Shown here piece by piece: positions 2 through 38,674 of a stretch of DNA of 64,000 bases. Origin of the DNA: Pseudomonas sp. St316 (GTDB lineage Bacteria; Pseudomonadota; Gammaproteobacteria; Pseudomonadales; Pseudomonadaceae); contig NZ_AP021901.1 in assembly GCF_018325905.1 (NCBI RefSeq), positions 2,232,001-2,296,000 on the forward strand, in the 5' to 3' direction. Position 1 is the first letter of the stretch. Every line of letters begins with the position of its first letter. A program made the translations under genes and the position numbers. The notes below the pieces were generated by a model. It did no database searches, was not told the origin of the DNA, and worked only from the letters and a program-made list of their open reading frames with translations.

Positions 2-3000
2 TTTTCCTTCGATATTTTTGGCCTGGAGATCTACGGGCCTCTGTCGGCTGGCGCCAGCATCGTGCTGACCGGCCAGAACGTCCACCAGGATCCGCAAGCA
101 GTGCTGGCGCTGATCGAGCGTCACGACGTGACCGTGCTGCAAGCCACCCCGTCGAGCTGGCGCATGCTGTTGGATCATGAGCACGCTGCGCTGTTGTCTG
201 GGCGCACTTTCCTGTGTGGCGGCGAGGCGTTGCCCCTGGAGTTGGCGCAACGGCTACTGGCGCTGTCGCCGAAGGTCTGGAATCTTTACGGTCCGACCGA
301 AACCACGATCTGGTCGGCGCTGCATCCATTGAGCCTGGAAAGCAGCCGTCCCTACCTGGGCAAGCCCCTGGACAACACCGCGTTGTACGTCGTCGGCAGC
401 GACCTGACGCTCAACCCGCCCGGCGCGCCGGGTGAGCTGCTGATCGGTGGCGATGGCCTGGCGCGCGGTTACTTCCAACGCCCGGCCCTGACCGCCGAAC
501 GCTTTGTGCCGGACCCGTTTTCCACCACCGGCGAGCGGCTGTACCGCACCGGCGACCTGACCCGCTATCGGGCCGAAGGCGTGGTCGAGTACCTCGGTCG
601 CATCGACCATCAGGTCAAGATCCGCGGCTTGCGCATCGAGCTGGGGGAAATCGAAGCGGCGCTGCTGGCCCGGGACAGCGTGCGTGAAACCGTGGTGGTG
701 GCCCATGAAGGCCCGACCGGTGCGCAACTGGTGGGTTACGTGGTGCCCGCGAGCGGTGAAGTAGCGGACGAGTCTTTGTTACGCGCTTCGCTCAAAGCAG
801 CGCTCAAGGCGCAATTGCCCGAGTACATGGTCCCGGCGCATTTGCTGTTCTTGGCGCAACTGCCATTGACACCCAACGGCAAGGTCGATCGCAAGGCGCT
901 GCCAGCCCCTGATGCCGGCGATCTGCAACAGACCTACGTGGCGCCGCGCAGTCAGCATGAGCAACAGGTGGCAGCGATTTGGCAGGAAGTGCTCAAGCTC
1001 GAGCGGGTAGGGCTGGAGGACAACTTTTTCGAATTGGGCGGGCACTCGCTGTTGGTCACCCAGGTGGTCTCGCGAATCCGTCGGACGTTGGGGATTGAGG
1101 TGCCACTGCGTAGCCTGTTCGAACACGGCACGTTGCGCGATTTCGTCAGTGCCTTCGACCTCGGCCAAGCTGAACAACCATTGGCGATGGTGTCGGTGCC
1201 CCGTGACCAGCCGCTGCCGTTGTCGTTTGCCCAGGAGCGCCAGTGGTTCCTGTGGAAAATGGACCCCGACAGCGCCGCCTACAACATTCCCACCGCGCTG
1301 CGGCTGCGCGGCGCACTGGACAAAATCGCCCTGCGCCGCAGTTTTGAAGCACTGGTAGCGCGTCACGAAAGCTTGCGCACCCGGTTCGTGGAGAGCGATG
1401 GCGGCACCTGCCAGGTGATCCGTGCGCAAGGGCAGGTCGACTTCGTTGAACGACGCCTGGCCGGCGAGGATGAGGCCAGGGTCCAGGCCTTCATCGAACA
1501 GCAGATGCAAGCCCCGTTCGACCTCTTGAACGATGCGCTGCTGCGCGTGGTGTTGCTGGAATTGGGCGAGCAGGAGCACATTCTGGTCCTGGCCCTGCAT
1601 CACATCGTGTCCGACGCCTGGTCGTTGCAGGTGATGGTCGACGACCTGATGAGCCTGTATTCAGCCTTCACGCTGGGGCAGCCCGCGCTGCTGCCCGCGC
1701 TGGCGGTGCAATACGCTGACTATGCGGTCTGGCAGCGCCAATGGATGGCGGCCGGTGAACGGGAGCGCCAACTGGCCTACTGGACCGGGCAACTGGGCGG
1801 TGAACAGCCGCTGCTGGAACTGCCCACGGACCATCCGCGCCCGGCGCAGCAGAGCCTGCGCGGCGCGCGTTTGCCGATTGTGCTGGATCGCGCGCTGAGT
1901 GATGCCCTCAAGGCCTTGGCTCGACGGGAAAACGTCACGCTGTTTGTGCTGCTGCTGGGCTCCTTCCAAGCCTTGTTACACCGCTACAGCGGTCAAGCCG
2001 ACATCCGCGTCGGCGTGCCGATTGCCAACCGCCAGCGCCTGGAAACCGAGCGGTTGATCGGCTTTTTCGTCAATACCCAGGTGCTGCGCGCTGAGTTCCA
2101 CGGCGATCTGACGGGCGCCGGTTTGCTGCAACAGCTCAAGCAGACGGCCATGGCGGCGCAGATGCATCAAGACCTGCCGTTCGAGCAATTGGTCGATGCC
2201 TTGCAGCCGCAGCGTAACTTGAGCCACAGCCCGCTGTTCCAGGCCATGTTCAACCATCGCAACGAAACCGCCTCGGCCTTTGAAAGCGCCTTGCCGGGCC
2301 TGGCGGTCGAACCCCTTGGCTGGGAGCAGCGCACCGCGCAGTTCGACCTGAGCCTGGAGACCACCGACAGCCCAGAAGGCCTGCACGCCGCGCTGATCTA
2401 CGCCACGGACCTGTTCGAGCCAGCCACCCTCGCGCGCATGGGCCAGCATTGGCTTAACCTGCTGCAAGGCATGGTGCAGGATCTGCATCGTCCCGTTGCG
2501 CAGTGGACGTTACTGGGCGATGACGAGCGGCGGCACCTGCTCGTCGACTGGAATGCGACGGCGGTCTCCTACCCGCTCGATCGCAGTGTCCAGGGGCTGA
2601 TCGAAGATCAGGTGCGCAGGACCCCGGACGCTCCGGCGCTGGTGTTCGGCGAACAACGCCTGAGCTACGCCGAGCTCAACGCCCGGGCCAATCGCTTGGC
2701 TCACACACTGATCGAGCATGGCGTGGGCCCGGATGTGCTGGTGGGCATCGCCGTGGAACGTTCGGTGGAAATGGTCCTGGGGCTGTTGGCGATTCTCAAG
2801 GCCGGCGGTGCCTATGTGCCGCTGGACCCTGAATATCCACAGGATCGCCTGGCCTATATGTTTGACGACAGTGGCATCGGTTTGCTGCTGACCCAGCAGC
2901 ATCTGTTGGCGCAGTTGCCGATCCCGGACGGGCTGCGCAGCCTGGCGCTGGACCTGCCGGACGCTGGGCTGCACACGGGCCGCGAGAGCAATCCGGACGT

Positions 3001-6000
3001 CGAGGTCCACGCTGAAAACCTCGCGTATGTGATCTACACCTCCGGTTCCACCGGCAAGCCCAAGGGTGCCGGCAATCGCCATTCGGCCCTGGTCAACCGG
3101 TTGTGCTGGATGCAGCAGGCCTATCGGCTCGATGCCACGGACAGCGTGCTGCAAAAAACCCCTTTGAGTTTCGACGTGTCGGTGTGGGAATTCTTCTGGC
3201 CGCTGCTGACCGGTGCGACCCTGGTGGTGGCCGCGCCGGGCGCTCATCGTGACCCGACACAGCTGATCGAGTTGATCACCGCGCAGCGCATCACCACGCT
3301 GCACTTCGTGCCGTCGATGTTGCAGGCATTCGTGCAAGACCCACGGGTGGCCGAATGTACCAGCCTGACGCGCATCGTCTGCAGCGGTGAAGCCCTGCCG
3401 GTGGATGCCCAGCAGCAGGTGTTCGCCAAACTGCCGAACGCCAGCCTCTACAACCTCTACGGCCCGACCGAGGCGGCCATTGACGTGACCCACTGGACCT
3501 GTGTCGAGGAAGGTCGCGACAGCGTGCCGATTGGTCAGCCGATTGCCAACCTGGGCACCTACATTTTCGATGATGAACTGGCGCCGGTGCCGGTGGGGGT
3601 GATTGGCGAGTTGTACCTGGCGGGGGAAGGCTTGGCGCGTGGTTACCATCGGCGCGCAGCGCTGACGGCCGAACGCTTCGTGACCGGCCCCTTCGGCCAC
3701 GGCCAGCGGCTGTATCGCACCGGTGACCTGGCGCGCTACCGCAGCGATGGCGTGATCGAATACGCCGGGCGGATGGACCATCAGGTGAAAATCCGTGGCC
3801 TGCGCATCGAACTGGGTGAAATCGAGGCGCGCCTGGCTGAGCATGATGAGGTGCGCGAAACCGTCGTCGTCGCTCAGGACGGCACCTTGCTGGTGGCCTA
3901 CGTGGTGCCGGCAGGCGCTGAACGGCTGAACGCCGATGACGCGATTCGCCAGGCGTTGCAAGGCCGCCTCAAGGGCCACTTGAGCCAGTCCTTGCCCGAC
4001 TACATGGTGCCGCAACACTGGGTGTGGCTGGAACAGCTGCCCGTCAGCCCCAACGGCAAACTGGAGCGCAAGGCGCTGCCCAAAGCCAATATCAGCGTCA
4101 GCCCCAAGGCTTACATCGCGCCCAATACCGCCCTCGAACAGGCACTGGCCGCTATCTGGCAAAGCGTGCTCGGCCGCGAGCAAGTGGGTGTCAGTGACAA
4201 CTTCTTCGAGCTGGGGGGCGATTCGATCATTTCCATCCAGGTGGTCAGCCGGGCCCGGCAGGCCGGGATCCATTTCAGCCCCAAGGATTTGTTCGTCCAC
4301 CAGACCATCCAGGGGCTCGCCAGCGTGGCCACCTTGGGCGCCAGCGGTCCGGGCTTTGACCAAGGCCCGGTGACGGGGAACGCGGTGTTGCTGCCGTTCC
4401 AGCAATTGTTCTTCGAACAGGACATGGCCGAGCCCCATCACTGGAACCAGTCGGTGCTGCTCAAGGGGCTGCGACCTGTACATGCCGAGCATCTGGAGCA
4501 GGCGTTGCAGGCCGTGGTTAGCCACCACGATGCCTTGCGCCTGGCCTTCGTGCGCGAGAACGACGCCTGGACCGCCCGCCATCAGACCCTCACAGAGCAA
4601 GACGCGGTTTGGCAGCGCTCAGCGCTGTTGTGGGCCGCCGAGGTGGCCGATGCCCCGGCGCTGGAGCGCCTGGCCGAACAAGCCCAGCGTAGCCTGGAAC
4701 TGGAAAGCGGCGCTTTGTTGCGTGGGGTATTGGCAAGCCTGGCCGATGGCAGCCAACGGCTGTTGCTGGTGATTCATCACCTGGTGGTGGACGGTGTGTC
4801 CTGGCGGATTTTGCTGGAAGACCTGCAACAGGCTTATGAACAACTGCAAGCTGGCCAGGCCCCGAAACTGCCGGCCAAGACCAGTGCCACCCAGGCCTGG
4901 GCACAACGCTTGAAAACCCATGCTGGCAGCGCGGCGCTACAGGCCCAGATGGCTTATTGGCAAGGGCAGCTTGCGGGTGTTCGCAACGATTTGCCCTGTG
5001 ACCGGCCTGAGGGTGAATTGCGCAGGTGTCACGAGGCGCAGGTGCAGACGCGCCTGGACAAGCACCAGACCCAACGACTCTTGCAGCAAGCGCCGTCGGC
5101 CTATCGCACCCAGGTCAACGATCTGTTGTTGACGGCCCTGTCTCGGGTGATCGGTCGTTGGACCGGCGAGGCTTCGACCTTGATTCAACTGGAGGGGCAT
5201 GGCCGTGAGGCGCTGTTCGATGACCTGGACCTGAGCCGCAGCGTCGGTTGGTTCACCAGCCTGTTCCCGGTGCGCTTGACCCCAGCGGCGACCCTCGAGG
5301 ATTCGCTCAAGGCGATCAAGGAGCAACTGCGCGCAATACCCGACAAAGGGCTCGGCTTCGGCGTGTTGCGCTACCTGGGCGATGAGCAGACTCGTCGCAC
5401 CCTCGCGGCGTTGCCCATGCCTCGCATCACCTTTAACTACCTGGGGCAGTTCGACAGCGGATTCAGCGATGCCGCCGACGGGTTGTTTATCCCCGCCAGC
5501 GAGCCGGCGGGCACGCCACAGAGCCCGCTGGCGCCGCTGGACAACTGGCTGACGCTCAACGGTAGCGTCTATGCGGGTGAGTTGAGCATCGACTGGACCT
5601 TCAGCAGGCACATGTTCGATGAGTCGACGATCCAGCGGCTGGCCCTGGAATACGCTCAGGAGTTGCAGGGCTTGATCGACTACTGCTGCCAGACCCGGCA
5701 TCAGGGCTTCACGCCGTCGGACTTCCCGCTGGCAGGTTTGAACCAGGCCCAGCTGGACGCATTGCCGCTGGCGCCGCGAGACGTCGAAGACATCTACCCG
5801 TTATCGCCGATGCAGCAAGGCATGTTGTTCCATTCGCTGTATGAGCAACAGGCCGGTCACTACATCAACCAACTGCGGGTTGATGTCGAAGGGCTGGACG
5901 TCGAGCGCTTCCGCCAGGCCTGGCAGGCGGCCGTGGATGCCCATGAAGTGCTGCGCAGCAGTTTCGTCTGGGAGGGGGATTTCAAGCGGGCGCTGCAGGT

Positions 6001-9000
6001 TGTACACAAGCAGATGGAGGTTGCGTTCCTGTTCCACGATGGATGCGCCGCAGCGAACCCATCCCAGGACCTGGACGCCCTGGCGTTGGCGCAGCGCCAG
6101 CAGGGTTTCGAGCTGGATGCAGCGCCGCTGTTGCGCTTGCTGGTGGTGCGCGTGGCAGAGGAGCGCTATCACCTGATCTACACCAGCCATCACATCCTGA
6201 TGGACGGCTGGAGCAACTCGCAGTTGCTCGGCGAAGTGTTGCAACGCTACGGCGGCCAACCCTTCGTCGCATCGGGCAGCCGCTACCGGGATTACATCGC
6301 CTGGTTGCAACGCCAGGATGCGGCGGCCAGCGAAGCGTTCTGGATGCCCTTGCTGCAACGCTTGGAGACGCCGACACGGCTGGCCGATGCCATTGCACCA
6401 CCGGCCCAGGCCAGCGCCGGTTATGGCGACCACGTGCAGGTCTTGGACGAAGCGCTGACCCGACGCCTGGAAGCCTTCGCCCGCGCCTCGAAAGTGACCG
6501 TCAACACGCTGGTGCAGGCCGCGTGGCTGCTGCTGTTGCAGCGTTACACCGGCAAAGACACCGTGGCTTTTGGCGCTACCGTGGCCGGTCGTCCGGCGGA
6601 TCTGCCGGGCATCGAGCAGCAGATCGGTCTGTTCATCAACACCTTGCCGGTGATCGCCAGCCCGCAGGCCGGGCAATCCCTGGACAGCTGGCTGCAAGCG
6701 GTGCAGGCGCAAAACCTGATGCTGCGCGAGTTCGAGCACACCGCGTTGCTGGATATCCAGCGCTGGGCCGGGCAGGGCGGTGAAGCGCTGTTCGACAGCC
6801 TGTTGGTGTTCGAAAACTATCCGATTGCTCAGGCGTTGGAACAGGGCGCGCCAGACGGTTTGCGCTTTGGTCCGCCGATCACCCAGGAGCAGACCAGCTA
6901 CCCGTTGACGCTGTTGGTGGAATTGGACCGGCAACTGTCGGTGCACATGAGCTACCAGCTGGCGAGTTTCTCGGCGGACACGGTGCAACGGCTGACGGCC
7001 CATCTGGCTCGGTTGTTGGGACAGATGGCCGATGGCAGCGAGCGTTGCCTGGGTGAACTGTCGATGCTGGCGTTCGATGAGCATCAGCGTCAGGTCCACG
7101 ACTGGAACCCGGTGGACGCGCCGTTCGAGCAAGCGCTGTGCATTCACCAGATGATTGCTCGCCAGGCCCAGGCCATGCCAGAGGCCCTGGCGGTGACTTT
7201 CGCCAACACTCGCCTGAGCTATGGCGAACTGGACACCCAGGCCAATCGCCTGGCCCATAAGCTCATCGAGCTGGGCGTGGGCCCGGAAGTGCGAGTAGGC
7301 GTGGCAATGCCTCGCTCCGAGCAGTTGCTGATCGCCTTGCTGGCGGTGCTCAAGGCCGGTGGCGCCTACGTGCCGCTGGACCCGGACTACCCGGCCGAGC
7401 GGGTGGCCTACATGCTCGACGACAGCCGTGCCCGGGTGTTGCTGACTGAGCAAGCGGTGGCGGCGACGCTGGACGTACCGAGTGAAACCGCCGTGCTGAT
7501 GTTGGATCACCTCGACTTGGCGAGTTACCCACTCAGTGCGCCACACACCGCGGTCACGCCAGACAATTTGGCCTACGTGATCTACACCTCCGGCTCCACC
7601 GGCAAGCCCAAGGGCGTGGCGATTGCCCATCGCAACGTGCTGGCGCTGATCGACTGGTCCAAGTCCGTCTACAGCCGCGACGACATCCAGGGTGTGTTGG
7701 CCTCGACGTCGGTGTGCTTCGATCTGTCGGTGTGGGAGCTGTTCGTGACCCTGGCCAACGGCGGCTCGCTGATCATCGCCCGCAATGCCCTGGAACTGCC
7801 GCACCTGCCGGCTCGCGACCAGGTGCGGCTGATCAACACCGTGCCCTCGGCGATTGCCGCGTTGCAGCGCAGCGGTGAGATCCCGGCCAGCGTGCGCATC
7901 ATCAACCTGGCGGGCGAACCGTTGAAGCAGAGCCTGGTAGATGCCCTGTACCAACACCCCACCTGTGGGAGTGGGCCTGTGCAAGCAGGACCAGTAGAAA
8001 CAAAACCAGTGGGGGCAGGACCTGTGGGAGCAAAGCTTGCTCGCGACAGCGTCCTGTCAGCTGGCCCCTATGCGACTGACCCACAGCCATCGCGAGCAAG
8101 CTTTGCTCCCACAAGCTCGCTCCCACAGGGGATAGAGCAGGGGATAGAGCATGTCTACGATCTTTATGGGCCATCGGAAGACACCACCTATTCCACCTGG
8201 AGCCGCCGCACCGCCGGCGGCACGGCGAACATCGGTCGCCCTCTCAAGCACACCGCCAGCTACCTGCTCGACGCCGACCTGCAACCCGTGCCCCAAGGCG
8301 TTTCGGCGCAGCTGTACCTGAGCGGCGCGGGCATCACCCGTGGCTACCTTGGCCGAGCGGCGATGACCGCCGAGAAGTACGTGCCCAACCCGTTCTCCGC
8401 AAGCGGCGAACGGCTGTACCGCACGGGCGACCTGTGCCGTTATCGCGCCGATGGCGTGCTCGAATATCAGGGCCGCATCGACCATCAGGTGAAGATCCGC
8501 GGTTTCCGTATCGAGCTGGGGGAAATCGAAGCGCGGCTGCTGCAACAACCCCAGGTGCGGGACGTGGCGGTCCTGGCTCAGGACGCAGCGGGTGGCCAGC
8601 AACTGGTGGCTTACGTGGTGGCTTACGTGGTGGCTTCTGGGGTGACTTCGGCGTTGCAACCGGACGAAAGCGCCCTGCGTGCTCAGCTCAAGGCAAGCCT
8701 CAGGGAACACCTGCCCGACTACATGATCCCGGCGCACCTGCTGTTCCTCGATCAATTGCCGCTGACGCCCAACGGCAAGCTCGACCGCAAGGCATTGCCA
8801 GCCGTGGAGACCGGGTTGTCGCAAAGCGGCTACGAGGCCCCCGTCAGCGAACTGGAGCAACAAATTGCCGGTGTCTGGCAAGAGGTGCTGGAGCTGGAGC
8901 AGGTCGGTCGCAACGATCATTTCTTCGAACGCGGCGGCCACTCGTTGCTGGCGACCCAGGTCGTCTCACGTTTGCGCAACTTGACGGACTATCCGCTGAG

Positions 9001-11581
9001 TCTGCGTGACCTGTTCAATCATCCGCAGCTCAAGGCGCTGGCGGCGCTGATGGCCGGAAACGTGGAGGGGCAGGTTCGCGCGGGTGATTCCCGAGGGGTT
9101 CGGCTCAAGGCTCATGGGCCGCGACGTTCGGCACCGCTGTCGTTGGTGCAGCGGCGTTTGTGGATCGCCGAACAACTGTCCGGCGGCACGTCGGCCTATG
9201 GTATGCCCATGGCGCTGCGCCTGTGCGGTGGGTTGTCGGTGGAACACCTGATGAGCAGCTTTGCCGAAGTGGTGCGCCGCCATGACGTGCTCCGTACCGC
9301 ATATGTGCAAGACGAAGAAGGCGATCCGCTGGCGCTGATTGCCGACGAGGTGCAGTTGGACTTCCCGCTGATCGACCTGTCCGACCTCTCGCCCGGCGCC
9401 CAGCAGGAGCAGGTGGTCCAGGCGACGCTGGAGAACGCCCGCACTCCTATCGACCTGGAGCAGGCACCGCTGTTGCGCGGGCGGATCCTGCGCTTGGGGC
9501 CGAGCGAACATGTGTTGTTGTACGCCATGCATCACATCATCTTCGATGGCTGGTCGATGGGGCTGTTGGTCGACGAACTGGTGCAGGCCTATGAGGCATC
9601 GCTCACCGGCAAACCGATGCCGCTGGCGCCCCTGGAGGTTCAGTACCAGGACTTCGCGCTGTGGCAGCAGGCGCTGGAAGAGCAGGGTGTTCTGGCGCGT
9701 CAGGCCGAGTACTGGAAGCACCGCCTCAGCGGCTACGAGGGACGCCTGAACCTGCCGCTGGACAACCCTCGGGGCCAGACCGCGTCCTATGACGGCGATG
9801 CGTTGCAATTCCAGCTTTCCAGCGGCTTGACCGGGGCATTGCGGCGGTTATCCAGCGAGGCCGGGGTCACGCTGTACAGCACGCTGCTGGCGTCTTTCCA
9901 GGTGTTGTTGCATCGGCTCAGCGGTGCGCAAGACATGGTGCTCGGCGCCGACGTGGCCGGTCGTGAACAGCCGGAGCTGGAGCGGCTGATCGGTTTCTTC
10001 GTCAACGTGTTGCCCCTGCGTTCGCACTTGGACGCCGAGGCCACGTTCGCCAGCTTCCTGGCGCGCACCCAGGACAATCTGCTCGACGCGCTGGAGCATC
10101 AGGATCTGCCATTCGACCAGATTGTCGAAGCCTCGGGCGTAGCGCGACACAAGGGCATGAACCCGTTGCTCCAGGTGTTGTTCGTGATGAACAACGTGCC
10201 GGTGCGTCCACGGTCCATGGCGGGATTGAGCATGGAGTTCCTGCCGGCGCTGGAGACCCATTCTAAATTCGACATGGCGTTGTTCGTTGACGAAGAAGAA
10301 GGGCAATTGCGCGGTAATTGGCAATTCGCCACAACCTTGTTCGGACATGAGCGCATTCAGCACCTGATTCAGGCCTGGACAGCCCTGTTGGAACAGATCG
10401 TCGCTGATCAGGACATTCAATTGGGAGCTATCAGCATGCCAGTCGACAACACGGCGACGGCCGTCACGCCTGCCACCGTCCCGGGGCCCAAGGCCGACAA
10501 ATTGGGCAAGTTTCTCAAGCGCTCCGTGACACCGCTCGCCAAGCCTCGTGCGGCGCGGGTGCGTGAATCACTGGTGGCTGCACCGCAGTGCTTTCCCTTG
10601 ATGCTGGAACCGGGCGAGCCCCATCTGGATGTCATCGAGTGGATTCACCAGAACCGGCCGCTGATCGAGCAAAAGCTCGCTGAGCATGCGGGCATTCTGT
10701 TCCGCGGTTTCGAGCTGGACGGTATCCAGGGTTTTGAAGCGTTTGCCGAAGCAGTACAGCCAGGGCTTTATGGTCAGTACGGCGACCTGCCCAAGAAAGA
10801 AGGCGGCAAGAACACCTACCGTTCCACGCCGTACCCCGAGCGCAAGATGATCCTGTTCCACAACGAAAGCTCCCATCAGGATCGCTGGCCGCGCAAGCAG
10901 ATGTTCTATTGCGAGCAAGCCGCGCCTGTGGGCGGGGCGACCCCGGTGGTGGATTGCCGCTTGATGTATGAACAACTGCCGGCGGACCTTCGCGAGAAGT
11001 TCGAAGACAAAGGCCTGCTCTACGTGCGCACCTTCACCGACAAACTCGACGTGTCGTGGCAGCACTTCTTCAAGACCGAAAACCGCCTTGAAGTGGAGGC
11101 CCGCTGTCGGGCGGGCGGCATCCAATGGCGCTGGCTCGATAACGACGAGTTGCAGACCCGCACACCGGGGCCCGCGATCATCACGCACCCGATCACTGGA
11201 GCGAAGTCGTTCTTCAATCAGGTGCAATTGCATCACATCTATTGGCTGGACCCGGATGTGCGGGAAGACCTGCTGTCGATGTTCGGCCTGGAGCGCATGC
11301 CCCGGCATGTGTACTACGGCGACGGCACACCGATTGAAGATGAGGTGATGGCGCGTATCGGTGAGCTGTATGAAGCCTGCGCGGTGCGTTTCGACTGGCA
11401 AAAAGGCGATGTGATCCTGCTGGACAACATGCTGGTGGCCCACGCCCGCGATCCGTTCGAGGGGCCGCGCAAAATCGTGGTGGCCATGGGCGATATGTAC
11501 GACCACAGCAGCCTTGGGAGTCCGTCGGCCGCCGGGCAAACCGCCCGGGGCGCACTCAACACCGAGGAAGCCGGAGCATGA
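2..11581 (+). CDS. Pyoverdine NRPS, 5'-partial, with C-terminal Asp beta-hydroxylase domain
   Basis: Non-ribosomal peptide synthetase open at the left edge; the frame continues upstream of base 62, so the true start lies outside. Domain order (residues counted from base 62): rest of an A domain (1-285) and T (Ser about 329); C (HHIVSDAW near 513), A (865-1340), T (GGDS about 1386) and E (HHLVVDG near 1572); C (HHILMDG near 2043), A (2360-2915) and T (about 2958); a last C (HHIIFDG near 3157); then a TauD-like Fe(II)/2-oxoglutarate oxygenase (3510-3815) with likely metal ligands H3600, E3602 and H3794. Specificity residues I read are DILQLGLI (Gly), DVWHVSLI (Ser, epimerised to D) and DLWNNALT (Ala/Gly-like, unsure). 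The last C has no A-T partner in this protein; the next gene supplies it. The third A domain carries an in-frame REP insertion of about 60 residues. Pyoverdine assignment rests on neighbours. The paralogue name (pvdI/J/D) cannot be fixed. Confidence 0.93.
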   Translation, partial: FSFDIFGLEIYGPLSAGASIVLTGQNVHQDPQAVLALIERHDVTVLQATPSSWRMLLDHEHAALLSGRTFLCGGEALPLELAQRLLALSPKVWNLYGPTETTIWSALHPLSLESSRPYLGKPLDNTALYVVGSDLTLNPPGAPGELLIGGDGLARGYFQRPALTAERFVPDPFSTTGERLYRTGDLTRYRAEGVVEYLGRIDHQVKIRGLRIELGEIEAALLARDSVRETVVVAHEGPTGAQLVGYVVPASGEVADESLLRASLKAALKAQLPEYMVPAHLLFLAQLPLTPNGKVDRKALPAPDAGDLQQTYVAPRSQHEQQVAAIWQEVLKLERVGLEDNFFELGGHSLLVTQVVSRIRRTLGIEVPLRSLFEHGTLRDFVSAFDLGQAEQPLAMVSVPRDQPLPLSFAQERQWFLWKMDPDSAAYNIPTALRLRGALDKIALRRSFEALVARHESLRTRFVESDGGTCQVIRAQGQVDFVERRLAGEDEARVQAFIEQQMQAPFDLLNDALLRVVLLELGEQEHILVLALHHIVSDAWSLQVMVDDLMSLYSAFTLGQPALLPALAVQYADYAVWQRQWMAAGERERQLAYWTGQLGGEQPLLELPTDHPRPAQQSLRGARLPIVLDRALSDALKALARRENVTLFVLLLGSFQALLHRYSGQADIRVGVPIANRQRLETERLIGFFVNTQVLRAEFHGDLTGAGLLQQLKQTAMAAQMHQDLPFEQLVDALQPQRNLSHSPLFQAMFNHRNETASAFESALPGLAVEPLGWEQRTAQFDLSLETTDSPEGLHAALIYATDLFEPATLARMGQHWLNLLQGMVQDLHRPVAQWTLLGDDERRHLLVDWNATAVSYPLDRSVQGLIEDQVRRTPDAPALVFGEQRLSYAELNARANRLAHTLIEHGVGPDVLVGIAVERSVEMVLGLLAILKAGGAYVPLDPEYPQDRLAYMFDDSGIGLLLTQQHLLAQLPIPDGLRSLALDLPDAGLHTGRESNPDVEVHAENLAYVIYTSGSTGKPKGAGNRHSALVNRLCWMQQAYRLDATDSVLQKTPLSFDVSVWEFFWPLLTGATLVVAAPGAHRDPTQLIELITAQRITTLHFVPSMLQAFVQDPRVAECTSLTRIVCSGEALPVDAQQQVFAKLPNASLYNLYGPTEAAIDVTHWTCVEEGRDSVPIGQPIANLGTYIFDDELAPVPVGVIGELYLAGEGLARGYHRRAALTAERFVTGPFGHGQRLYRTGDLARYRSDGVIEYAGRMDHQVKIRGLRIELGEIEARLAEHDEVRETVVVAQDGTLLVAYVVPAGAERLNADDAIRQALQGRLKGHLSQSLPDYMVPQHWVWLEQLPVSPNGKLERKALPKANISVSPKAYIAPNTALEQALAAIWQSVLGREQVGVSDNFFELGGDSIISIQVVSRARQAGIHFSPKDLFVHQTIQGLASVATLGASGPGFDQGPVTGNAVLLPFQQLFFEQDMAEPHHWNQSVLLKGLRPVHAEHLEQALQAVVSHHDALRLAFVRENDAWTARHQTLTEQDAVWQRSALLWAAEVADAPALERLAEQAQRSLELESGALLRGVLASLADGSQRLLLVIHHLVVDGVSWRILLEDLQQAYEQLQAGQAPKLPAKTSATQAWAQRLKTHAGSAALQAQMAYWQGQLAGVRNDLPCDRPEGELRRCHEAQVQTRLDKHQTQRLLQQAPSAYRTQVNDLLLTALSRVIGRWTGEASTLIQLEGHGREALFDDLDLSRSVGWFTSLFPVRLTPAATLEDSLKAIKEQLRAIPDKGLGFGVLRYLGDEQTRRTLAALPMPRITFNYLGQFDSGFSDAADGLFIPASEPAGTPQSPLAPLDNWLTLNGSVYAGELSIDWTFSRHMFDESTIQRLALEYAQELQGLIDYCCQTRHQGFTPSDFPLAGLNQAQLDALPLAPRDVEDIYPLSPMQQGMLFHSLYEQQAGHYINQLRVDVEGLDVERFRQAWQAAVDAHEVLRSSFVWEGDFKRALQVVHKQMEVAFLFHDGCAAANPSQDLDALALAQRQQGFELDAAPLLRLLVVRVAEERYHLIYTSHHILMDGWSNSQLLGEVLQRYGGQPFVASGSRYRDYIAWLQRQDAAASEAFWMPLLQRLETPTRLADAIAPPAQASAGYGDHVQVLDEALTRRLEAFARASKVTVNTLVQAAWLLLLQRYTGKDTVAFGATVAGRPADLPGIEQQIGLFINTLPVIASPQAGQSLDSWLQAVQAQNLMLREFEHTALLDIQRWAGQGGEALFDSLLVFENYPIAQALEQGAPDGLRFGPPITQEQTSYPLTLLVELDRQLSVHMSYQLASFSADTVQRLTAHLARLLGQMADGSERCLGELSMLAFDEHQRQVHDWNPVDAPFEQALCIHQMIARQAQAMPEALAVTFANTRLSYGELDTQANRLAHKLIELGVGPEVRVGVAMPRSEQLLIALLAVLKAGGAYVPLDPDYPAERVAYMLDDSRARVLLTEQAVAATLDVPSETAVLMLDHLDLASYPLSAPHTAVTPDNLAYVIYTSGSTGKPKGVAIAHRNVLALIDWSKSVYSRDDIQGVLASTSVCFDLSVWELFVTLANGGSLIIARNALELPHLPARDQVRLINTVPSAIAALQRSGEIPASVRIINLAGEPLKQSLVDALYQHPTCGSGPVQAGPVETKPVGAGPVGAKLARDSVLSAGPYATDPQPSRASFAPTSSLPQGIEQGIEHVYDLYGPSEDTTYSTWSRRTAGGTANIGRPLKHTASYLLDADLQPVPQGVSAQLYLSGAGITRGYLGRAAMTAEKYVPNPFSASGERLYRTGDLCRYRADGVLEYQGRIDHQVKIRGFRIELGEIEARLLQQPQVRDVAVLAQDAAGGQQLVAYVVAYVVASGVTSALQPDESALRAQLKASLREHLPDYMIPAHLLFLDQLPLTPNGKLDRKALPAVETGLSQSGYEAPVSELEQQIAGVWQEVLELEQVGRNDHFFERGGHSLLATQVVSRLRNLTDYPLSLRDLFNHPQLKALAALMAGNVEGQVRAGDSRGVRLKAHGPRRSAPLSLVQRRLWIAEQLSGGTSAYGMPMALRLCGGLSVEHLMSSFAEVVRRHDVLRTAYVQDEEGDPLALIADEVQLDFPLIDLSDLSPGAQQEQVVQATLENARTPIDLEQAPLLRGRILRLGPSEHVLLYAMHHIIFDGWSMGLLVDELVQAYEASLTGKPMPLAPLEVQYQDFALWQQALEEQGVLARQAEYWKHRLSGYEGRLNLPLDNPRGQTASYDGDALQFQLSSGLTGALRRLSSEAGVTLYSTLLASFQVLLHRLSGAQDMVLGADVAGREQPELERLIGFFVNVLPLRSHLDAEATFASFLARTQDNLLDALEHQDLPFDQIVEASGVARHKGMNPLLQVLFVMNNVPVRPRSMAGLSMEFLPALETHSKFDMALFVDEEEGQLRGNWQFATTLFGHERIQHLIQAWTALLEQIVADQDIQLGAISMPVDNTATAVTPATVPGPKADKLGKFLKRSVTPLAKPRAARVRESLVAAPQCFPLMLEPGEPHLDVIEWIHQNRPLIEQKLAEHAGILFRGFELDGIQGFEAFAEAVQPGLYGQYGDLPKKEGGKNTYRSTPYPERKMILFHNESSHQDRWPRKQMFYCEQAAPVGGATPVVDCRLMYEQLPADLREKFEDKGLLYVRTFTDKLDVSWQHFFKTENRLEVEARCRAGGIQWRWLDNDELQTRTPGPAIITHPITGAKSFFNQVQLHHIYWLDPDVREDLLSMFGLERMPRHVYYGDGTPIEDEVMARIGELYEACAVRFDWQKGDVILLDNMLVAHARDPFEGPRKIVVAMGDMYDHSSLGSPSAAGQTARGALNTEEAGA
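7965..8144. repeat. REP doublet inserted in frame in NRPS adenylation domain
   Basis: Inverted REP arms lie at 8024-8045 (GTGGGAGCAAAGCTTGCTCG...) and 8090-8112, flanked by partial GTGGGAG copies at about 7968 and 8120. The whole stretch is read through as about 60 extra residues rich in Gly, Pro, Ala and Ser. It separates the segment ending LYQHP from IEHVYDLYGPSEDTT, just before the A5 core motif. No stop codon is created, and the insert is a multiple of three. The last codons repeat GIEQ-GIEH, a small direct duplication at the exit point. Confidence 0.88.
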
Positions 11582-28872: not shown

Positions 28873-30489
28873 ATGACGATTTCTCGACGATGGTTCATGG
28901 CAGGCCTGGCGCTGACCGGTGCCGCCGTGCCTGCGGTGTATTACGGGCATCGCGAACTGACCCGGCCGGACCCGACCATCACTCCCGGCGAGGCCTCGTT
29001 CGACGTGGCCGACGTAGCGGGCCAGCGTCGGGCCGATACATTGCGGGGCATCTGGACGATCCGTTTCACCGGCCGCGACGCTGGCCTCGACGGCTTGCCC
29101 CGGGACGATCTGCAACTATTCCTCGATATCGGCCAAAGGGGTCGTGGTCTGGTGGGCTACCTCGATACCGCCGAGCGCTTGCGCGGCACCGATGAGCCGC
29201 GTTATCGGGTGTTGGGCGACCTGGCCGGAACCGACCCGAAGCAACTGAGCTGGCGGCTGATGAGTGCTCGACAGGGCGCGCCGGACTACGAATTCACCAT
29301 GACCCTGGACGAAGTCTGGGCCGGTTTCGGCAATGCCGGCAGCGCCACCCTCAGTGGTCGTGTGTGGCGCCTGGACCGACTCTTGGCGCTGCCTGAACAG
29401 GACAATCATTTCATCGCCCTCAAACAGCGTTTCCCCGAGGCCCGGGAGCGCACGCCGTTGAGCCCGGCACTGCTGGCCTGGCTGGTGTCACCCGAGCATC
29501 GGCTGTTCCACCAGCTCTGGCACGCCACCCGGGACAAATGGCACACCCTGGACGAGGACAAGCGCAACGCACTGCGCGGTATCGGCTGGCAGCCCGGTCC
29601 CAGGGACCAGGAACGTGACGCCCGTGGCCCGCGCAAGGATCGCAACGGTTCAGGCATCGACTTCTTTTTCATGCACCGGCACATGCTCGGCACGGCGCGT
29701 TCGATCCAGCCGCTGCCGTCGTGGTCGCGCTTCCCGCTGCCGCAACCGGAACTGGAGCGTGATCACCAGGGGTTCGCCCGCTATTTCGATAACCACGACG
29801 GCACCGCCTTGCCGCCTACTTGGTTGGCCGACGGCGACGAGCAATACGCCCGGTGGGTCAGCGACATCAAGACCGCCGAGACCTACCACAGCAATTTCCA
29901 GGTCTGGGAATCGCGCTACCGCGACCCGCGCTACCTGGCGAAATTGACCCTCGGCCAGTTTGGTTCGGAAGTGGAACTGGGCCTGCACGACTGGCTGCAC
30001 ATGCGCTGGGCCTCGGTGCCGCGCGACCCATCCAACGGCCATCCAGTGCCGTTCGCCCGCGACCCGGACGACTTCGCCGCGCGCTGGTACGCACCGGAAA
30101 ACGACTTCCTCGGCGATCCGTTTTCCTCCCATGTGAGCCCGGTGTTCTGGGCCTTCCACGGTTGGATCGACGACCGTCTCGAAGATTGGTTTCGTGCCCA
30201 CGAACGCTTCCACCCGGGCGAGGTGAGTCGGCTTGAAGTCAACGGCGTGCCCTGGTTCGCCCCGGGCCGCTGGGTGGAAATCGCCGACCCTTGGCTGGGC
30301 CCGGACACCCACGGTTGCAGCACCACGCCTGGGTTGCAGGTTGGACGCTCGGTGGAAATGGACCCGGAAACCATGAAACTGGCGCTGCGCATCACCTTTG
30401 GCAGCGATGACAAAAAGCTTTCCGAGCTGTTTCGCCGCGTGCCGCAACGACCGTGGTATGCACGGAACCTCAAATCCAAGCCGGTGTGA
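28873..30489 (+). CDS. pvdP: PvdP, Tat-exported tyrosinase for chromophore maturation
   Basis: Copper tyrosinase that oxidises ferribactin in the periplasm to build the pyoverdine chromophore. 538 residues. A twin-arginine signal ISRRWFMAGLALTGAA starts the protein. The first half is a beta-rich domain. The second half has likely copper ligands in RLFHQLWHATRDKWH, DFFFMHRHMLG and SSHVSPVFWAFHGWIDDRLE. The AGGTAAGG site precedes ATG 28873. It is transcribed alone, divergently from pvdMNO. Confidence 0.93.
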   Translation: MTISRRWFMAGLALTGAAVPAVYYGHRELTRPDPTITPGEASFDVADVAGQRRADTLRGIWTIRFTGRDAGLDGLPRDDLQLFLDIGQRGRGLVGYLDTAERLRGTDEPRYRVLGDLAGTDPKQLSWRLMSARQGAPDYEFTMTLDEVWAGFGNAGSATLSGRVWRLDRLLALPEQDNHFIALKQRFPEARERTPLSPALLAWLVSPEHRLFHQLWHATRDKWHTLDEDKRNALRGIGWQPGPRDQERDARGPRKDRNGSGIDFFFMHRHMLGTARSIQPLPSWSRFPLPQPELERDHQGFARYFDNHDGTALPPTWLADGDEQYARWVSDIKTAETYHSNFQVWESRYRDPRYLAKLTLGQFGSEVELGLHDWLHMRWASVPRDPSNGHPVPFARDPDDFAARWYAPENDFLGDPFSSHVSPVFWAFHGWIDDRLEDWFRAHERFHPGEVSRLEVNGVPWFAPGRWVEIADPWLGPDTHGCSTTPGLQVGRSVEMDPETMKLALRITFGSDDKKLSELFRRVPQRPWYARNLKSKPV

Positions 30490-37220: not shown

Positions 37221-37244
37221 TAAATTTTTTTTCATTGTCCTCGT
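37221..37244 (+). promoter_or_regulatory. Iron-starvation (PvdS) box upstream of pvdA
   Basis: TAAAT (37221-37225), 16 bases, CGT (37242-37244), 96 bases before the pvdA ATG. Confidence 0.88.
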
Positions 37245-37339
37245 TCCTCTCAACAGACGACTTGTCGGCGCCCGAACGCCGGTCAGGTTCCCCAGGCTTT
37301 TCGTGCCCTGTTGAGGGGCTTTTCCAGAGGACACTGGAC

Positions 37340-38674
37340 ATGACTCAGGCAATTGCATCGCCCATCGTTCATGATTTGATCGGCATTGGCTTCGGCCCTT
37401 CGAACCTGGCGTTGGCCATCGCGCTGCGGGAGCGGGGGCCGGTCCAGGGTGAACTGGACGTGCTGTTCCTCGACAAGCAGGCCGACTACCGCTGGCACGG
37501 CAACACCCTGGTGACCCAGAGCGAGTTGCAGATTTCCTTCCTCAAGGACCTGGTGACCCTGCGCAACCCCACCAGCCCTTATTCATTCGTCAACTACCTC
37601 AAGCACCATGGCCGCCTGGTGGACTTCATCAACCTCGGCACCTTCTACCCGTGCCGCATGGAGTTCAATGACTACCTGCGTTGGGTGGCCGGGCACTTCC
37701 CCCAACAGAGCCGCTATGGCGAAGAAGTGCTGCGCATCGAGCCGGTGCTGCACAACCAGCAGGTCGAGGCGCTGCGGGTAATTTCCCGCACAGCCCAGGG
37801 CGAAGAGTTCGTACGCACCACCCGTTCGCTGGTGGTCAGTGCCGGCGGTACGCCGCGCATTCCCGACGTGTTCAAGGCTTTCAAGGATGATGGGCGGGTG
37901 TTCCACCATTCCCAGTACCTGGAGCGCATGGCGGGCCAGCCGTGCGTGAGCGGCCAGCCGATGAACATCGCCATCATCGGTGGCGGGCAGAGCGCGGCAG
38001 AGGCCTTCATCGACCTCAACGACAGCTTCCCTTCGGTGCAGGTCGACATGATCCTGCGCGGCTCGGCCCTCAAACCGGCGGACGACAGCCCGTTCGTCAA
38101 CGAAGTGTTCTCGCCGGAGTTCACCGACCTGGTGTTCCAGCAACCCCACAGCGAGCGCGAGCGCCTGGTCAACGAGTACCACAACACCAACTATTCGGTG
38201 GTGGACATCGACCTGATCGAGCGCATCTACGGGATTTTCTATCGCCAGAAAGTCTCCGGCATCGCCCGCCATGCGTTCCGCACCCTCACCACGGTGGAGA
38301 AAGCCACGGCCACCGACGCCGGCGTGGAACTGGCGGTGCGCAACAACGCCACCGGTGAGCTGACGGTGCGTTGCTATGACGCCGTGGTGCTGGCCACCGG
38401 TTACGAGCGGCAGATGCACCGCACGCTGTTGGAGCCACTGACCCAGTACCTGGGGGATTTCGAGGTGGATCGCAACTACAAGCTGATCACCGACGAGCGC
38501 TGCAAGGCGGCGATCTACATGCAGGGCTTCTGCCAGGCCAGCCATGGCCTGAGCGACACCTTGCTGTCGATCCTGCCGGTGCGCGCCGATGAAATCGCCG
38601 GCTCGTTGTATGAGCATGGCAAGCATCGTGGGCAAGCGCGCGCAGTGCCCGATCTGCACCTGGCGACGGCATAG
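37340..38674 (+). CDS. pvdA: L-ornithine N5-monooxygenase PvdA
   Basis: FAD- and NADPH-dependent hydroxylase making N5-hydroxyornithine for the pyoverdine peptide. ATG 37340 (site CAGAGGA) gives 444 residues; P. aeruginosa PvdA has 443. FAD site GIGFGPSNLALAIALRE near residue 15; HGNTLVTQSELQISFLKDLV is family-typical; NADPH site IAIIGGGQSAAEAF near 214; C-terminal DAVVLATGYERQMH. Its presence implies hydroxyornithine in the product, although no hydroxyornithine-specific A domain lies in this window, so those modules are probably upstream of base 1 or elsewhere. Confidence 0.95.
   Translation: MTQAIASPIVHDLIGIGFGPSNLALAIALRERGPVQGELDVLFLDKQADYRWHGNTLVTQSELQISFLKDLVTLRNPTSPYSFVNYLKHHGRLVDFINLGTFYPCRMEFNDYLRWVAGHFPQQSRYGEEVLRIEPVLHNQQVEALRVISRTAQGEEFVRTTRSLVVSAGGTPRIPDVFKAFKDDGRVFHHSQYLERMAGQPCVSGQPMNIAIIGGGQSAAEAFIDLNDSFPSVQVDMILRGSALKPADDSPFVNEVFSPEFTDLVFQQPHSERERLVNEYHNTNYSVVDIDLIERIYGIFYRQKVSGIARHAFRTLTTVEKATATDAGVELAVRNNATGELTVRCYDAVVLATGYERQMHRTLLEPLTQYLGDFEVDRNYKLITDERCKAAIYMQGFCQASHGLSDTLLSILPVRADEIAGSLYEHGKHRGQARAVPDLHLATA

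Follow-up and report, generated by a model that had tools for sequence, protein, structure and literature searches.

Host gene and anatomy of the insert

The window analysed here, 64,000 nucleotides of the single-contig, 6.78-Mb genome of Pseudomonas sp. St316, opens inside an NRPS gene, and it is within one of the adenylation (A) domains of this gene that a pair of inverted REP sequences is read through in frame (Table 1). The full protein, P0004, has 4562 aa and is built of condensation, adenylation and carrier domains with a TauD domain at its end; its Pfam matches fall in five families only, none of them extra. The best PDB match was McyA2-CAPCP. Three genes nearby score above curated cut-offs, namely the pyoverdine maturation tyrosinase PvdP (28873-30486), an exporter of cyclic peptides and a TonB siderophore receptor, and the gene cluster is therefore very probably that of pyoverdine. 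A frame at 37235-38671 in the same region gives a weak match to the putative histamine N-monooxygenase TIGR04439 (173 bits against a cut-off of 700). The pocket of the A domain would suggest alanine under a residue numbering that we presume to apply, and this was not counted as evidence. In a plasmid collection 47 records were matched, none covering more than 80% of the query.

Table 1. Features of the insert, its host gene and a second gene with an in-frame REPIN. Positions are those of the window unless another locus is named.
Feature	Position	Strand	Remarks
NRPS gene, 3' part	2..11581	+	open over 3859 aa; gene start precedes the window
Adenylation domain with insert	7124..8821	+	third by A4-A5 motif in P0004
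REP-coded in-frame insert	7961..8140	+	180 nt / 60 aa in excess of the 102 nt of loop-free A domains
Possible degenerate left end of an older type-2 REP	7964..7987	+	TGTGGGAGTGGGCCTG...
Four in-frame 15-nt units	7976..8035	+	PVQAG, PVETK, PVGAG, PVGAK; the last merges into the left arm
Left REP arm, type 1	8023..8046	+	24 nt; translated (P)VGAKLAR(D)
REPIN spacer	8047..8089	+	43 nt; gap between the arms
Right REP arm, type 1	8090..8113	-	24 nt; plus strand translates as SRASFAPT
Probable right end of an older type-2 REP	8114..8127	-	AGCTCGCTCCCACA; translated ...SLPQ
12-nt tandem duplication, in frame	8126..8149	+	CAGGGGATAGAG; missing in the sister copy L061
Urea-carboxylase-like biotin enzyme gene	L249:1764-5414 (G000:C1, ~5145263-5148913)		outside the window

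The insert, whose edges are uncertain by a few codons, is flanked by the helix LVDALYQ and the strand EHVYDLYGPSE (A5). A preliminary description of this DNA had reported an uninterrupted frame with about 60 extra residues before A5, two inverted arms (at 8024-8045 and 8090-8112), further REP fragments and a duplicated sequence at the exit site, and all of these were borne out. The arms are slightly longer than first drawn, are 100% complementary and start 67 nt apart; the fragments correspond to the four 15-nt units together with the degenerate REP ends at the edges; and the exit-site sequence, GGGATAGAGCA, is present as a 12-nt tandem repeat (8126-8137 and 8138-8149). A target-site duplication was considered for this repeat and rejected: as it is missing from the sister copy in the neighbouring gene, it is a local duplication. 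Another in-frame 12-nt tandem repeat, GTGGCTTACGTG, occurs further along this A domain, at 8606-8629 in its C-terminal part.

Sister copy and distribution of the loop

A second copy of the REPIN loop lies outside the window (L061:14679-14978; G000:C1:2228679-2228978), in the last module of the neighbouring upstream NRPS gene, a frame of 4266 aa. The two copies, 11,222 nt apart, have identical arms and spacers and are embedded in about 2.4 kb of 76-99% identity per 150-nt step, outside of which identity is 75% or less. They appear to have arisen by recombination or duplication of an A-domain segment.

A domains with the class motif INLAGEPL...DLYGPSED and enough flank were gathered from the window and loci L061 to L178; removal of 14 exact duplicates from 129 left 115 for comparison. 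The stretch from motif to motif is exactly 102 nt in 100 of these, and the remaining 15, from 13 genomes, carry REP-coded inserts at the same place, which add 81 to 363 nt (27 to 121 residues) and are all stop-free multiples of three. In the window the stretch is 282 nt, which gives the insert its 180 nt. Carriers include St316 (two copies), P. brassicacearum (L072), P. brassicacearum subsp. neoaurantiaca (L075, L076), P. thivervalensis (L078), P. tehranensis (L074) and Pseudomonas sp. Q11, RGM2987 and K18. All 13 genomes belong to a single group around P. brassicacearum and P. thivervalensis. When the insert by itself was used as a protein query, ten NRPS proteins were returned, the window's own included, with the loop at the same place in every one; named sources among them were P. 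brassicacearum, P. ogarae and Pseudomonas sp. CM11. Two of the proteins found, P0002 and P0003, hold two inserts each, in two modules of one chain, and one loop-bearing protein cluster comprises 83 member sequences. The notion of a single unusual event, implied in the preliminary description, thus gives way to an insert that is common to a species group, sits in two genes of the St316 genome and has been remodelled. The description would have been contradicted by orthologues that all carry the same loop with non-REP sequence; the inserts found in orthologues proved to be REP-coded, and loop-free orthologues have no extra residues.

Of 398 genomes of the genus searched with the upstream flank, 95 matched at E 1e-100 or better, and the best 30 loci were read for the loop. 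In a flank tree of 34 rows the insert rows all fall into one group of 17 (support 100/100), which also holds two loop-free rows (L148, P. uvaldensis, and L156, from genome G181). The tree needs at least three changes, and a single clade of insert rows was ruled out by the AU test (p 0.001). The insert rows not being one clade, there must have been losses, domain exchange or more than one gain.

REP types and remodelling of the loops

The loops are of two REP types. Type 1, TGTGGGAGCAAAGCTTGCTCGCGA, is found in five (the window, L061, L072, L073 and L074) with both arms perfect in all of them, and type 2, TGTGGGAGCGAGC[CT]TGCTCGCGA, in nine, with 0 to 2 mismatches per arm and a left arm in the same reading phase in 9/9. 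L152 retains only the outer parts of type 1, the centre of the hairpin having been deleted. At the edges of the type-1 loops there are apparent type-2 ends, most evident in the window and L061, where the right-hand one reads GCTCGCTCCCACA. Full-length type-2 arms differ from these remnants at 5 to 8 of 23 positions; for the left remnant of the window the figure is 7 of 23, and its phase is that of the intact type-2 loops of relatives. These remnants suggest that an older type-2 element may have preceded the type-1 loops.

The 15-nt units around the type-1 arms also occur in L072 and, in greater number, in L073. In this last, from strain Q11 (L073:10570-10922), they flank the arms on both sides as an inverted repeat with 137-nt arms, 70% complementary, and the protein gains a loop of 121 residues. 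In P. brassicacearum subsp. neoaurantiaca (L076:556-972) the REP loop is duplicated in tandem and in frame together with the INLAGEPL stretch, near the end of the contig.

Neither the left nor the right junction has a constant length from species to species, and this makes a single event less likely. Most loops, those of type 1 included, have SLP[QH] at the right edge. A shared right junction as proof of a single insertion was dropped, for SLPQG[IV][EA]HV is found in some loops only and others have extra residues. The type-1 spacers of four species differ from each other at 5 to 14 of 43 sites. The 43-nt spacer was at one point taken as proof that type-1 arms had replaced type-2 arms, and this too was dropped, spacer length not being diagnostic of origin: in 22 other REPINs with an exact type-1 arm the spacer is 38-40 nt in 12 and 42-44 nt in eight, and in the eight with two exact type-1 arms it is 42-44 nt in four.

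Arms and the genomic REP population

In type-1 arms none of 13 fourfold sites is variable, whereas the flanks vary at 43 of 116 (p 0.004; few sites, four loops from different species, with L061 and the deleted L152 left out). In type-2 arms the corresponding values are 0/8 and 67/103 (p 0.0004; again few sites, eight of the nine loops, with L076 left out). Spacers are variable at 17 of 42 (type 1) and 31 of 42 positions (type 2), and because they vary, youth of the insert does not explain the constancy of the arms. Arms without fourfold change between varying flanks imply an element that still evolves like a REPIN. The simplest reading is that they are maintained through exchange with copies elsewhere in the genome, though selection may instead be at work on the hairpin itself.

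There is no shortage of such copies. The St316 genome holds 213 exact copies of the type-1 arm, and the arm pattern with NNN, at up to two mismatches, is matched 742 times (reversed control, 0); at up to three mismatches there are 11 matches in the window against 0.00 expected from 100 shuffles. In the genomes with type-1 loops, type-1 REPs number 213, 311, 169, 76 and 231, and in those with type-2 loops 89, 124, 15, 0, 14, 1, 8 and 1. The former are richer (p 0.005, kinship uncorrected), although two type-2-loop genomes are rich too (89 and 124). The transposase family PF01797 (Y1_Tnp) was found in 15/15 genomes, with three matches in St316, and also in 5 of 14 control genomes. REP arms were present near a Y1_Tnp gene in nine of 30 loci read, and at one St316 locus (L239) the gene is flanked on either side by arms that differ from type 1 at two letters. 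A one-orientation REP array with steps of about 135-137 nt or multiples was observed at G000:C1:16884-18133, with similar arrays near 3118483 and 3623911.

The insert thus has inverted arms at a short fixed distance, arms drawn from a family abundant in the same genome, and in that genome a candidate REP-associated tyrosine transposase gene, as judged by PF01797. It is not extragenic, lying as it does inside an open NRPS frame. By its sequence it is a REPIN in an unusual place, extragenic location being a usual habit of these elements rather than a sequence criterion.

Coding REPs elsewhere and a second protein

Coding REPs are rare in this genome. Taken together, the window, L061 and 50 loci centred on REPs yielded 70 distinct REP clusters, of which two lie in coding-like frames, both being the NRPS loops, and nine more in spanning frames that were taken as non-coding. 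In a sample of 400 kb drawn at even steps, none of 47 clusters is in a coding frame, five being in spanning frames likewise taken as non-coding. Coding was assessed by frame length and codon-position GC, a test that may miss genes, since it called 64% of bases coding in the 400-kb sample.

That the NRPS loops were the sole coding REPs was an early view, abandoned after a search of the genome with a type-2 REPIN peptide in one reading frame, which gave 150 scored places among 1040 candidates. Nine of the ten longest frames were read (the tenth, of 358 aa, has an internal stop and was left out), and one of them is coding: a urea-carboxylase-like enzyme with a REPIN between its CT_A_B and CT_C_D domains. 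The gene was found in 18 of 20 genomes, and in all 18 an in-frame palindromic repeat is seen by eye at this linker. The repeats belong to four families: type 2 or shortened type 2 (nine genomes), TGTGGCGAG... (four), TGTAGGAG/TGCAGGAG (three) and TGTGGGAGCTGG (two).

The family at the linker is related to the REPs of the genome around it. TGTAGGAG linkers occur in just those three genomes that are richest in such REPs (389, 174 and 72; others 25 at most). TGTGGGAGCTGG occurs in five genomes only, the outgroups; the two with TGTGGGAGCTGG linkers hold 493 and 51 copies, and one other (G285) has 84 although its linker is of another family. In just 10 of 18 genomes does the linker family outnumber each of the other three that were counted. 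When linker families were shuffled over genomes the observed fit was reached in none of 20,000 trials (kinship uncorrected), and when the shuffling was confined to the 13 genomes whose linkers are of type 2 or TGTGGCGAG it was reached in 1,230 of 20,000. As kinship was uncorrected, part of the fit is common descent.

State of the module

Pairwise dN/dS of the flanks has a median of 0.064 (0.016-0.132) in 14 of the 15 insert rows, L076 being left out, and of 0.057 (0.016-0.096) in 14 loop-free rows picked among the nearer ones, with L148 and L156, the nearest two, left out. The median dS among insert rows is 0.4. Motifs A3, A4 and A10 are present in 14/14 insert rows checked; the strict pattern of A8 is missed in four and that of A7 in one, each a conservative change on reading.

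Structure prediction by AlphaFold2 was carried out for the window domain (59 aligned domains; mean pLDDT 78.7) and for the loop-free domain L148 as a control (53 rows; mean pLDDT 83.2). In the former, residues 280-338 fall below 50, the insert being made up of blocks of pLDDT 21-46, and this stretch lies between a helix (269-277) and a strand (343-348). In the control a link of four residues leads from the corresponding helix (269-278) to the strand (283-288), and it follows from both models that the insert would occupy the turn just before A5. The remaining elements come in the same order, except that the window model alone has a short helix at 412-416 and that the control, whose end is longer, has a C-terminal helix there. 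The loop is therefore predicted to be disordered, on an intact A-domain fold.

All 15 loops, which are related and non-independent, are in frame and stop-free, as against about 24% of the combinations of element, strand and phase for 73 distinct REPINs of the St316 genome, the loop's own included. Two proposals of the preliminary description, selection for the open frame and a surface loop tolerated just before A5, are supported. Its alternative of an impaired module is not, with dN/dS as low as in loop-free relatives, core motifs in place and the predicted fold kept. From dN/dS and the predicted fold, failure of the module is unlikely; most likely the insert-bearing domain works.

Origin and effect of the loops

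The reading we favour, with a probability of about 0.75, is that a REPIN occupies the turn just ahead of the A5 strand of an A domain, very probably of a pyoverdine NRPS, and is translated as a tolerated, disordered surface loop. The loop itself would probably be nearly neutral, with a module that most likely goes on loading its amino acid. In outline, an old type-2 REPIN could have been present at the A5-turn site, and a later type-1 REPIN might have landed in it or replaced it in some lineages. The loop may then have spread between modules and strains by A-domain recombination, while the 15-nt arrays would have grown by slippage and the arms would have been kept through exchange with the other REPs of the genome, of which there are hundreds, or by fresh copying from them.

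A different history, in which lineages gained REPINs independently at a site that tolerates insertion, is possible but on the whole doubtful. It would account for the two REP types, for the non-monophyly of insert rows in the flank tree and for junctions that vary on both sides, and it has a parallel in the urea-carboxylase-like linker, where four repeat families are held at one site. It sits less easily with the common phase of the type-2 left arms (though the need for an open frame may force the phase), with the SLP[QH] edge that type-1 loops have like most others, and with type-1 spacers so little diverged among four species. A single old insertion with replacement and repeated insertion are hard to tell apart.

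That the insert has impaired or inactivated the module, leaving an altered pyoverdine or a decaying gene, is suggested by the addition of 60 residues near A5, a core motif that lines the active site, and by a very stable mRNA hairpin (-107.6 kcal/mol, z -6.2). We nonetheless consider it most improbable, given dN/dS values no higher than those of loop-free domains, open frames in every one of the 15 loops, A3, A4 and A10 in all rows checked with A7 or A8 conservatively varied in five, and the persistence of loops over rows that have diverged this far at silent sites. Nor does it seem probable, though it is less remote, that the loop is kept for a function, be it as a hinge or docking linker or as REP DNA that helps modules and strains to exchange A domains. 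Two adjacent NRPS genes do have the segment around the REP in common, P0002 and P0003 carry paired inserts, and the arms are conserved at silent sites; yet the protein sequence and length of the loop vary freely (81 to 363 extra nt), it is predicted to be disordered, the centre of the hairpin has been lost in L152, and exchange between modules is common in NRPS genes that have no REPs. As for an artefact, repeats often confuse assemblies and several of the relatives are draft genomes, but with a St316 genome in one contig, inserts that differ from each other in 13 genome assemblies and a loop-bearing protein cluster of 83 members, it is scarcely credible.

Relation to known systems

Interrupted adenylation domains hold folded catalytic domains at other core-motif intervals. 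The St316 domain is like them in having extra residues within an NRPS A domain, but here these are few, predicted to be disordered and placed between A4 and A5, so that it would not be counted among them. Rickettsia palindromic elements (RPE) are palindromic repeats inserted in frame into unrelated proteins. They are alike in the insertion in frame and different in host and family; the coding copies of St316, moreover, are rare against a large intergenic population (2/70 and 0/47 clusters).

RPE are mentioned in PMC3733652, which describes intragenic GTAG/CGTC REPs. These lie, also as dimers, within open frames; 20-30 aa are encoded by a dimer or group and 43-82 aa by a cluster. Pseudomonas REPs are there assigned to the GTAG-1 family, and recB of two Xanthomonas species is given as having different REPs at about the same site. 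The St316 insert, wholly intragenic and adding 60 aa above 100 loop-free homologous domains, is an in-frame intragenic REP in that sense. REPINs with RAYTs in the P. fluorescens group (PMC3390384) resemble the present element in their inverted arms, with starts here 67 nt apart, in the hundreds of arm copies and in a Y1_Tnp gene flanked by REPs. The REPs considered in PMC3390384 are those of non-coding regions, whereas the St316 element is translated in frame within an enzyme domain. Both in-gene REPs (PMC3733652) and REPINs with RAYTs in this species group (PMC3390384) are therefore already in print. What goes beyond the text of PMC3733652 is the presence throughout a species group, the second module, the silent-site conservation of the arms and the link between the repeat family of the gene and that of the genome. 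The main text of that paper, whose gene list is in a supplementary file, does not contain 'peptide synth', 'pyoverdine' or 'nonribosomal', and in a limited search that included PMC3733652, PMC3390384 and PMC8049555 we did not meet the NRPS site, its species-group history or signs of turnover in place.

Significance

The stretch between A4 and A5 is a natural insertion-permissive site in A domains, which has accepted inserts of 27 to 121 residues, and it could be useful for placing tags or linkers in NRPS enzymes. How REPIN populations keep their arms uniform is an open question, and in-gene copies offer synonymous sites as an inner clock by which to approach it: the arms look frozen while flanks and spacer drift. 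With four families in 18 genomes, the urea-carboxylase-like linker is a place where REPIN turnover at a fixed site can be tested.

It might be, although we put this forward tentatively and with more doubt than confidence, that live REPINs reside over the long term in a small number of tolerated linkers of Pseudomonas enzymes, with arms that match the current REP population, and can be swapped in frame for a family that is expanding. If so, the sequence of such loops would be dictated by the resident repeats and their transposases rather than by the needs of the protein, and the A domains of NRPSs would gain these loops and trade them between modules.
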